This document shows positions 27,833 through 31,119 of a stretch of 64,000 bases of DNA, in pieces. The position numbers and the translations under genes were made by a program. The stretch is from Candidatus Jingweiarchaeum tengchongense (lineage in GTDB: Archaea; Nanobdellota; Nanobdellia; Jingweiarchaeales; Jingweiarchaeaceae). Position 1 is the first letter of the stretch; each line of letters begins with the position of its first letter. The notes below the pieces were generated by a model. It saw only the letters and a program-made list of their open reading frames with translations. It was not told the DNA's origin and ran no database searches. The DNA is taken from assembly GCA_025920705.1 (NCBI GenBank), contig JAPDLJ010000005.1:1-64000 (forward strand), read 5' to 3'.

Positions 27833-28774
27833 TCAAACACTTTCCAGTAGCTCAACACTATCTATTTTTCCATCTCCATCAAGGTCAAATCCTTGAATCA
27901 CGCATGCAAAATCTTCATCGTTCTGATAATTCTTTAAAACATCTTTGTAAAATCTCGTAATTCCAAGCACGCACGCTTTCGTTCCTATTGCACGGAGACC
28001 TGCAAGAACCAAGATCTTGTTTTCTTTATTGAATGGGTTTCTTATTCTAGCGATCACACCGCAGCTCTCCGCAGTATAAACACTTTTCTCTGAGACAATG
28101 CCTTTCCAATAATTCTGCTCATCGAATTTTATTGGTAAATACTTGTTCATCTCTGCAGTTAGTATATTCGTCCCAGGACCACCAATCAATATCAAATTAT
28201 TTTGCTCCTCCTTTTCTGCTTTGATATCAACATCAAGCTTTATTGCAAATTCTTTTGGTAAATTACAAATTTGGCCAAGGAAGATTCCCAAATAAATCCC
28301 GTAGTGGCCATCCCTGGCGCTTGCTTTGAATGGACCATGCGGGTCAGGAGATCCGACTACAATCTTGCAATTCAATTCACTATCCTTGACAAATGGTGAA
28401 AGAAATTCTCTGAGCTTCTCATTTATTCTTGGAATTGAAAGAGGGGGTATTTTCTTTTCGCCACCGGGTATTTCTAAGCCAAATGCATAACTTGAAACTT
28501 TGTAAAACTTTGCAATTCCGCCTTTCTTCTCCTCCTTTCTCTCAATGGAAATCAAACCGGAGTTCTTCAATTGTTTTATGTGAAAGTATACTTTTTGTTC
28601 ATGCATTTTCAAAATCTTTGCGATCTCAGCTGGATACATTGGTTTCGATGCAAGAAGTTTTAATATTTTCCATCTAATTGGATTTAAAATTGGTTTAAGT
28701 GCCTCTGGATCACTGAATAGAAGTATGTCTTTCGCGTATGTTTTGTTTTTTTCATCACTTATAATAACTTTCAT
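27833..28774 (-). CDS. HTH regulator fused to S-layer-like domain and EF-hand loop
   Basis: 313 residues. An N-terminal ArsR-like winged helix (PIRWKILKLLASKPMYPAEI, then HEQKVYFHIKQLKNSGLISI) is followed by an alpha/beta domain. Its LILIGGPGTNILTAEMN and ILVLAGLRAIGTKACVLGI segments resemble the C-terminal domain of archaeal S-layer proteins. The last residues contain DLDGDGKIDSVE, a perfect 12-residue EF-hand/dockerin calcium loop. There is no signal peptide, so the protein is cytoplasmic. A calcium-sensing regulator is possible by inference. It ends one base before pelA. Confidence 0.75.
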   Translation of the reverse strand: MKVIISDEKNKTYAKDILLFSDPEALKPILNPIRWKILKLLASKPMYPAEIAKILKMHEQKVYFHIKQLKNSGLISIERKEEKKGGIAKFYKVSSYAFGLEIPGGEKKIPPLSIPRINEKLREFLSPFVKDSELNCKIVVGSPDPHGPFKASARDGHYGIYLGIFLGQICNLPKEFAIKLDVDIKAEKEEQNNLILIGGPGTNILTAEMNKYLPIKFDEQNYWKGIVSEKSVYTAESCGVIARIRNPFNKENKILVLAGLRAIGTKACVLGITRFYKDVLKNYQNDEDFACVIQGFDLDGDGKIDSVELLESV

Positions 28775-28829: not shown

Positions 28830-29876
28830 TTATCTTGTGTGTTTCACTTTTTGTATAATGTTCTTGGCGTATTTCTCAGGTTCTTCGAGTGCTCTGTTTA
28901 TTGCTATTTCTGCGATTGTCGCACCTTTGTCTGCGATCTTATTCAAAGTTGAAATGATCGTCCTTAAATGTGGTATTCCTGGAAGCTCATCCATTAGTTT
29001 ATTTGATTCTAATTCAATATTTTTCTTTGTTTCTATGATTTTATTTGCGCATTTGATGTCCCTATTGAAAAAACACTCGAGAGCTTTTTGAAGTATCATC
29101 CCCGTTGACTCCCCTATGTAATAGATTTGTTTAACATATTTTTCTGGCAACTTGTTCTTGTAATTCATCAGCATGACCACTGTCTTGGAGAGATCTTCTG
29201 AGTAATCCGCACTCAATTCAAGATATTGTAAAATTAATCGTGTGGCTGGAAGTACGAGTATGTTATCAACACCTATCTTCTCTGCAATGTCTGGTTTCAC
29301 CTGTGCTAGAAGAACTAAACGTACTGCAAGATAGTAGATAGAGTCAGCTTCCTCCTCACGTTTTATTGCTTCTTCAGCTAATGACTTATCTCTTTCAATA
29401 ATTGCCTGCATGGCTTCAGAGAGTATAGTTAATGTAATCGTACAAAGTCTACGCGTCAGTATGTCAAGTTTGAATCTTGTTGGTTCGATTGAACACTGTA
29501 GTAAGATTTCTTTGGGTGTTTCTTCCACAATTCCCAAGCCTATCAGTTTTCTGACGATTCTTCTCATTTCGGTTGTATGTTTTCTTCCTATTCTTGTTTG
29601 TGATGAAATTCTCATAAAATCATGGCCATGCATGTAGTTACCGACAATTAGTCTTTCAAGTAATCCTGGTTCATCACAAGCATCAACGTTTATCACATAT
29701 TCTCCAATTTCATTGTCTGTTTTCTTCTGGTTCGTGGATATTTTCAATGTACCATTTTTTTCCGTTGTGATGAAAACGAGATCACCCGGATTAAGCTTAT
29801 TTTGTTTTACCCAATCGCTTGGGAGAGACACCGTCAACGTTGAATAACCCACTTTTTGTATTTTCCTACTTTCCAT
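28830..29876 (-). CDS. AbrB-PhoU fusion regulator
   Basis: 348 residues. An N-terminal SpoVT/AbrB swapped-hairpin domain (RKIQKVGYSTLTVSLPSDWV) is fused to a PhoU-like region with two three-helix bundles (KREEEADSIYYLAVRLVL, then ELSADYSEDLSKTV). Family members are archaeal PhoU-like regulators linked to phosphate control. No phosphate transport genes are visible in the window. It is divergent from the RHH-GcvH gene with a shared 92-base promoter region. Confidence 0.85.
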   Translation of the reverse strand: MESRKIQKVGYSTLTVSLPSDWVKQNKLNPGDLVFITTEKNGTLKISTNQKKTDNEIGEYVINVDACDEPGLLERLIVGNYMHGHDFMRISSQTRIGRKHTTEMRRIVRKLIGLGIVEETPKEILLQCSIEPTRFKLDILTRRLCTITLTILSEAMQAIIERDKSLAEEAIKREEEADSIYYLAVRLVLLAQVKPDIAEKIGVDNILVLPATRLILQYLELSADYSEDLSKTVVMLMNYKNKLPEKYVKQIYYIGESTGMILQKALECFFNRDIKCANKIIETKKNIELESNKLMDELPGIPHLRTIISTLNKIADKGATIAEIAINRALEEPEKYAKNIIQKVKHTR

Positions 29877-29968
29877 TTTGGATCACCATTATATACTAAT
29901 ATATATTATATATGCATCAAATATATATTTTTCGATTATGATATATACTATAAAGGAGGTGATTGAAA
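29877..29968. promoter_or_regulatory. Shared divergent promoter with strong ribosome site
   Basis: TATA-like runs toward each gene lie at about 29899-29912 (reverse) and 29920-29931 (forward). ATATACTA occurs at about 29891-29898 and 29943-29950. AAAGGAGGTGAT (29952-29963) is a near-perfect Shine-Dalgarno site 5 bases before ATG 29969, unusually strong for this window. Confidence 0.55.
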
Positions 29969-30559
29969 ATGAGCGAGAAAAAAACACTAAACCTAAAGCA
30001 GGAGCTCATAAATGAGATCGAAAAAGCAATGAAAACGGGACATTATCAAACTGTGGATGAATTCATTTCAGAAGCAATTAAACTACGCATTGATCAACTA
30101 ATGAGGAAAGAGGCATTGCCAGATGAGAAACGTGATGAAATTTTGACTAAATCAGCATTTTTGTTATACTCACCAAAACACACATGGGCTCAGATAACAC
30201 CAAAAGGAACGATACGTGTTGGTATTTCGGAATACGCACAAAAGTATCTTAAAGGTATCGCAAATGTCCGTACAGAACCCGTTGGAACTGAAATCAAAAA
30301 GGAAGATCCATTTGGTATGGCAGAAACATGGATGTTCATATTTGACTTGTATTCGCCTGTCAGCGGGGAAATAGTTGGTTTCAATGAAAATTTGATTGAT
30401 GAACCATACATAATCAATTCGGATCCGTATGGTAAAGGTTGGATTGTTGAAATCAGACCAAAAGACATATCAACTTTTGAAAAAGATTTAAAAGAATTAT
30501 TAAGTGAAAACGAATATAACAAGTTTGTCAGTAAATTGGAGAATAAATTGGTGACTTGA
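29969..30559 (+). CDS. Ribbon-helix-helix protein fused to GcvH-like domain lacking the lipoyl lysine
   Basis: 196 residues. Residues 3-50 look like a ribbon-helix-helix DNA-binding domain (KKTLNLKQELINEIEKAM, then QTVDEFISEAIKLRIDQLM). Residues 64-185 align with glycine-cleavage H protein: LYSPKHTWAQ, VGISEYAQKYLKGIA, DLYSPVSGEIVGFNENLI, SDPYGKGWIVEI. At the lipoylation site the usual ESVKA reads ETWMF, so the modified lysine is Met 122 (codon ATG at 30332). It cannot carry lipoate there. Most likely a regulator that reuses the H-protein fold to sense or bind something. The start is fixed by the ribosome site. Confidence 0.85.
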   Translation: MSEKKTLNLKQELINEIEKAMKTGHYQTVDEFISEAIKLRIDQLMRKEALPDEKRDEILTKSAFLLYSPKHTWAQITPKGTIRVGISEYAQKYLKGIANVRTEPVGTEIKKEDPFGMAETWMFIFDLYSPVSGEIVGFNENLIDEPYIINSDPYGKGWIVEIRPKDISTFEKDLKELLSENEYNKFVSKLENKLVT

Positions 30560-30636: not shown

Positions 30637-31119
30637 ATGGACAAGCTTGAAGAAGCTTTGCAAAATATAGAGGTTTTCTGCAGGGTCCTAGTGGAAAAAA
30701 TAGTACAATATGAAAGAGGTATAGAAAGCAATGTTGCTGTGGAACCAATGGAAAAGTTGCTCAGAGAAAAATATGTAATAAAAGAAGATTTTAGGGGAAA
30801 ATATCTTACAAAGAAGTCTGAAATGAACTTAACCAGCGGTTTTATTCCTGCACCACAAATTGAAGAGCCTTTAATTGATATTTTTGAGGAAGAAAATAGG
30901 ATTAAGATTATAATGCAACATAACTGTTCTGAACCAATAAAAGTCTATCCGCTCAAAAACGGATTGAAAGTGTGTAAAATAATTTGTTACAACGATATTG
31001 ATAAAGGAAAAGTATGTACAGAAAAATGTAAAGAGCTTAATTTATCAATCGATAAGCCAATTCAAGGAATATTCAGCAACTGCAATAATAATGTTCTGGA
31101 AATCTGCGTAAACTACTAA
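30637..31119 (+). CDS. Hsp20/alpha-crystallin-like small protein
   Basis: About 160 residues from ATG 30637; a longer frame upstream has no good start. An N-terminal helix (LEEALQNIEVFCRVLVEKIV) is followed by PLIDIFEEENRIKIIMQHNC, which resembles the first strands of Hsp20 or gas-vesicle GvpH-type proteins. The rest is beta-rich with six cysteines, which is unusual. It follows the RHH-GcvH gene by 77 bases. Function not established. Confidence 0.6.
   Translation: MDKLEEALQNIEVFCRVLVEKIVQYERGIESNVAVEPMEKLLREKYVIKEDFRGKYLTKKSEMNLTSGFIPAPQIEEPLIDIFEEENRIKIIMQHNCSEPIKVYPLKNGLKVCKIICYNDIDKGKVCTEKCKELNLSIDKPIQGIFSNCNNNVLEICVNY

Follow-up and report, generated by a model that had tools for sequence, protein, structure and literature searches.

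The 64,000-nucleotide stretch of Candidatus Jingweiarchaeum tengchongense analysed here (the window) encodes a protein in which a predicted N-terminal ribbon-helix-helix (RHH) domain is joined to the fold of the glycine cleavage H-protein (GcvH), with methionine in place of the lysine that carries lipoate. This protein, RHH-GcvH', is most likely a NikR-like one-component regulator with its dead H-protein domain as a sensor or docking module. In Bathyarchaeia the lipoate-less regulator apparently sits before Hdr/hydrogenase operons, and the distantly related archaeon of the window has apparently acquired it without the operon. No earlier description of an RHH-GcvH' regulator was found in the literature searched. 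The features of the locus are collected in Table 1.

Table 1. Features of the RHH-GcvH' locus in the window
Feature	Position	Strand	Basis
RHH-GcvH' gene, 196 aa (residues ~1-50 RHH, ~51-64 linker, 65-188 GcvH fold)	29969..30559	+	ORF read and domain searches
Predicted N-terminal RHH domain, residues 1-50	29969..30118	+	RHH_1 in relatives, NikR alignment
GcvH-fold domain without lipoyl lysine, residues 65-188	30161..30532	+	Pfam, Foldseek
ATG codon (Met122) replacing the lipoyl-lysine codon	30332..30334	+	Alignment to solved H-proteins
Shine-Dalgarno AAAGGAGGTGAT	29952..29963	+	Read directly, kept in relatives
Candidate bipartite promoter/operator element: TATA-rich ATATATGCATCAAATATATATT and downstream GATATATAC	29908..29948	+	PWM
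TATATACT, counterpart of the GTA(T/A)(T/A)TAC element	29890..29897	.	Visual footprint
Candidate RHH target blocks TATATATC / GTATTTAC	within 29877..29968 (or L032 7870..8000)		
AbrB/MazE + PhoU-domain regulator gene, 348 aa, divergent partner	28830..29876	-	57% identical to Bathyarchaeial protein
Cys-bearing Hsp20/alpha-crystallin-like protein, third module gene	30637..31119	+	39% identical to Bathyarchaeial protein

Domain architecture

The C-terminal domain matches Pfam GCV_H (E=1.3e-31), and the best PDB matches of the AF2 model are all H-proteins (Foldseek E 6e-12, TMt 0.8), in agreement with an earlier sequence-only reading in which the GcvH fold was followed nearly end to end. The whole hammerhead-type fold is shared with GcvH (PF01597 / NF002270), including the SDPYG-W motif. 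Alignment with solved H-proteins places Met122 at the lipoyl-lysine (ETWMF vs ESVKA/ESTKS), as had been proposed. The protein thus has the fold of a functional GcvH but not the ES-x-K lysine, and its genome has no lipoate ligase; it further differs from GcvH in the tryptophan preceding the lysine site, the N-terminal RHH domain, the lack of gcv context and its placement in a separate clade. Loss of the Glu14 equivalent, weighed as further evidence of inactivation, is not counted because Lys-bearing Bathyarchaeial GcvHs vary at the same place. The Shine-Dalgarno site, previously described as unusually strong, is indeed so: it is 12 bases long (AAAGGAGGTGAT) and complementary to the 3' end that 16S rRNA usually has, and most relatives have a similarly strong site.

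The window protein alone gives a weak ParD match in its N-terminal part. Across the family, Pfam RHH_1 matches 12 of 29 members (best 4e-6), ParD and RHH_6 are matched as well, and a family profile covering residues 1-60 gives an in-register alignment with NikR (E=0.024). The RHH_1 matches and the NikR alignment show the beta-alpha-alpha sequence pattern of an RHH domain and agree with the earlier assignment. The AF2 monomer has two helices in residues 1-48 at low confidence (pLDDT 38-48), so the RHH fold predicted for residues 1-50 rests on sequence. NikR, the nearest solved RHH protein fitting the fusion in register, has a comparable architecture, with an N-terminal RHH domain and a C-terminal sensing/tetramerisation domain, and it serves hydrogenase needs. 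However, the C-terminal domain of NikR is an ACT domain, while the fusion has a GcvH fold, no evidence of a nickel site and a different operator; in all 29 members scanned this domain is GCV_H rather than an ACT domain with a Ni site.

A conserved family without the lipoyl lysine

The same fusion, which the sequence-only reading had proposed to seek in other archaea, is found in Bathyarchaeia, and all fetched loci together contain 50 distinct RHH-GcvH' proteins, the window's included. The residue at the lysine site is Met in 38, Trp in eight, Pro in three and Leu in one, and tryptophan directly precedes the site in all 50 (Trp121 in the window). Lysine occurs there in 0/50, so Met122 is not a local error, an explanation that would have called for fusion homologues keeping the lysine. 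Stand-alone GcvH domains keep it in 39 of the 41 compared; one of the two exceptions is L112, an unfused protein with the motif ETWNF, and the other is a fusion fragment at a contig edge (L105). The former (L112:238-723) is a Lys-less GcvH from a Bathyarchaeial genome, and the DNA directly upstream has no RHH reading frame.

A scan of public genomes with the window protein gave 18 close relatives, titled Bathyarchaeota or 'uncultured archaeon', of which the 16 full-length ones are 56-64% identical to it. When 257 genomes across the class were searched with a profile, further fusions appeared, including tandem pairs in which the leading gene either encodes Trp in place of the lysine (ETWWF) or has three residues inserted. 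The fusions form a single clade (support 100/100), separate from the lipoylatable GcvHs, both those of Bathyarchaeia and those of the phylum to which the window belongs. Strong purifying selection acts on this clade: dN/dS is about 0.02-0.03 for close relatives, and among computable pairs it lies at 0.01-0.03 for the full gene and does not exceed about 0.02 in the H-domain.

All fusions except that of the window come from Bathyarchaeia. Among 398 genomes of other Thermoproteota classes, the only full-length fusions were in genomes that the Bathyarchaeia search had already turned up, and no second case emerged from 371 genomes of the phylum that includes the window. The fusion was not found on viral contigs, where the search gave one Lys-bearing GcvH (L133, on a 298 kb IMG/VR contig) and stand-alone RHH proteins (L134-L136, also IMG/VR), 36-38% identical to the RHH part. 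The window's own class has a distinct small GcvH-like group (L011, L013-L020) that keeps the lysine in the motif E[AS]xKW[STA]G.

Gene neighbourhood in Bathyarchaeia

An AbrB-PhoU gene lies divergently in 36 of the 37 loci whose upstream DNA is available, one of the 36 being the window. Archaeal AbrB/MazE-PhoU genes are usually linked to pst genes; the one in the window belongs to this group, but here the gene is locked to RHH-GcvH' instead. The Cys-bearing Hsp20/alpha-crystallin-like gene is the third conserved neighbour and lies beyond the AbrB-PhoU gene in Bathyarchaeia. On the other side, of the 37 Bathyarchaeial loci whose downstream DNA is available, 28 continue with an Hdr operon (two of them by way of a TauE gene) and six more with a TauE transporter unit. 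The operon order is NfnB-like flavoprotein, MvhD(-HTH), HdrA, MvhD, HdrC and HdrB, with NiFe-hydrogenase genes nearby. In all six Bathyarchaeial genomes checked, a normal Lys-bearing GcvH is encoded elsewhere as well. One FlpD/MvhD subunit in such an operon has a C-terminal winged HTH (L032:10436-11200) and is a possible second regulator.

These neighbours bear on the function of the RHH domain. ParD/CopG-type RHH domains are commonly antitoxins, and the fusion could, given its weak ParD match, belong to a toxin-antitoxin pair as the antitoxin, with its H-domain carried along as a passenger. This seems very unlikely, since the conserved neighbours are AbrB-PhoU, Hsp20-like and Hdr genes with no toxin family among them; AbrB is an antitoxin-type fold too, yet it is fused to PhoU.

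The neighbourhood also recalls LbpA of the sHdr sulfur-oxidation system, which is GcvH-like, is encoded beside hdr genes and keeps the lysine in 95/95 aligned sequences (PMC6067878). LbpA, however, acts as a metabolic carrier and has no DNA-binding domain, and the Bathyarchaeial operons are of the HdrABC-MvhD-NiFe type. Membership of the fusions in the LbpA group was rejected: they lack the lysine, and FlpD/MvhD is absent from the window genome.

Docking on enzymes is what H-proteins are made for, the fusion gene heads Hdr operons, and LbpA works with Hdr-like complexes (PMC6067878). The dead H-domain might accordingly sense no small ligand and instead dock a protein of the Hdr/hydrogenase complex, or a genuine lipoyl-GcvH, reporting complex abundance or redox state to the promoter. 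We hold this possible but somewhat doubtful. The protein is kept in the window genome although FlpD/MvhD and any other GcvH are absent, so neither partner is obligatory there, and the only CCG-domain gene of that genome adjoins a GlcD-type FAD oxidase and a small ferredoxin.

The module in the window genome

The window genome is a single MAG, alone in its order (1.1 Mb, 92.5% complete, contamination 0.47%). Its small size and its gene content suggest a DPANN-like host class. A search of it gave no second GCV_H domain and no FlpD/MvhD. The sequence-only reading had seen no lipoyl ligase gene nearby, and the absence extends further: lipoate ligase/octanoyltransferase (PF21948) is missing genome-wide, in a search whose control gave matches in 13 of 14 genomes. 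With all three lacking, the module therefore stands alone in this genome. The nearest thing to Hdr there is a cluster on C40 (L052:6291-10097), where a GlcD-type FAD oxidase, a small ferredoxin-like protein and a CCG (HdrB/GlcF-like) protein are encoded within four kilobases.

A GcvH fold that has lost its lysine could act as a decoy or competitor for lipoyl attachment or for glycine-cleavage partners, as had been suggested from the sequence. This reading fails because the window genome has neither a ligase nor another GcvH to compete with, and we consider it extremely improbable. The Bathyarchaeial loci likewise have Hdr/hydrogenase genes and not gcv genes adjoining the fusion.

The three adjacent module genes are closest to Bathyarchaeia (64% identity for RHH-GcvH', 57% for AbrB-PhoU and 39% for the Hsp20-like gene), while the adjacent pelota gene is 44% identical to genomes of the window's DPANN-like class vs 34% to Bathyarchaeia. 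On these identities, the three genes appear to be a transferred island in which the Hsp20-like gene has been relocated. The Bathyarchaeial affinity of three neighbouring genes in a single MAG without others of its order would also be seen if the contig were Bathyarchaeial contamination, in which case there would be no cross-phylum case, although the fusion family itself would stand. Contamination is unlikely: besides the affinity of pelota, GC is flat across the island, the contamination estimate is low and no Hdr genes follow the island in the window. Nearby, the window encodes an ArsR-type HTH with a partial S_layer_C match and an EF-hand-like C-terminus, an odd architecture (27833-28774, minus strand).

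A conserved element upstream of the fusion gene

An AT-rich element in two parts, 20-75 bases upstream of the gene, is common to the relatives. A PWM built only from Bathyarchaeial loci (n=11) scores 28.3 bits at the window copy, the sole match above 12 in 64 kb, while 40 dinucleotide shuffles gave a mean of 7.9 and a maximum of 15.0 bits. The element is kept in the window despite protein identity of about 60%. Nearly every type I locus has a single copy, placed before the fusion gene and nowhere else; at the tandem-pair loci and at L045 the score is low or no copy was detected. Near the start of the divergent gene, relatives also have a conserved GTA(T/A)(T/A)TAC, which is weaker in the window.

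The first block is probably a TATA box, and the second would lie where transcription should start, a usual position for a repressor. Because part of the element is core promoter, its conservation need not mean binding by the RHH domain. The PWM gave no convincing second copy at other operons in any of the fetched loci, so the proposed regulon is taken no further than the fusion gene's own operon.

Proposed mechanism

The proposal that a metabolic carrier domain has been turned into a regulator is well supported genomically by the conserved Lys-less fusion, the upstream element and the divergent regulator partner. We consider it fairly probable that the protein is an autoregulating one-component transcription factor with the dead H-domain as a sensor or assembly module. 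The RHH dimer would bind the AT-rich element in its own promoter, a region that also serves the AbrB-PhoU gene in the opposite direction. The GcvH fold, unable to carry lipoate, would serve as the sensor or assembly module, and DNA binding would change when its remodelled hairpin (E-T-W-M-F vs E-S-V-K-A) is occupied by a ligand or by another protein. In Bathyarchaeia the target would be the NfnB-like/MvhD/HdrABC operon (with NiFe hydrogenase) or the TauE-type transporter unit that immediately follows. The window archaeon, without such an operon, would have kept only the three-gene regulatory island. Within this scheme the GcvH fold, the missing lysine, the fusion, its conservation under selection, the gene order and the kept promoter element are observed, and DNA binding, the operator's identity, sensing, the target and the direction of control are inferred.

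Implications

The window protein passes the NCBIfam cut-off for GcvH (NF002270; 117.9 vs 117 bits), which means that annotation pipelines will give it the wrong name GcvH, and such a label would falsely imply a glycine cleavage system wherever these genes occur. If the proposed function is true, a carrier protein has become a transcription factor and the loss of its defining residue has been fixed. The chances seem about even that the fusions represent a new archaeal regulator class, in which a dead H-protein fold receives a signal and controls flavin-based electron-bifurcating Hdr/hydrogenase operons, and whose self-contained cassette of three genes (RHH-GcvH', AbrB-PhoU and Hsp20-like) moves between archaeal phyla. 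Bathyarchaeia are abundant uncultured sediment archaea, and RHH-GcvH' would, if so, be a first candidate regulator for their Hdr/hydrogenase electron-bifurcation operons.
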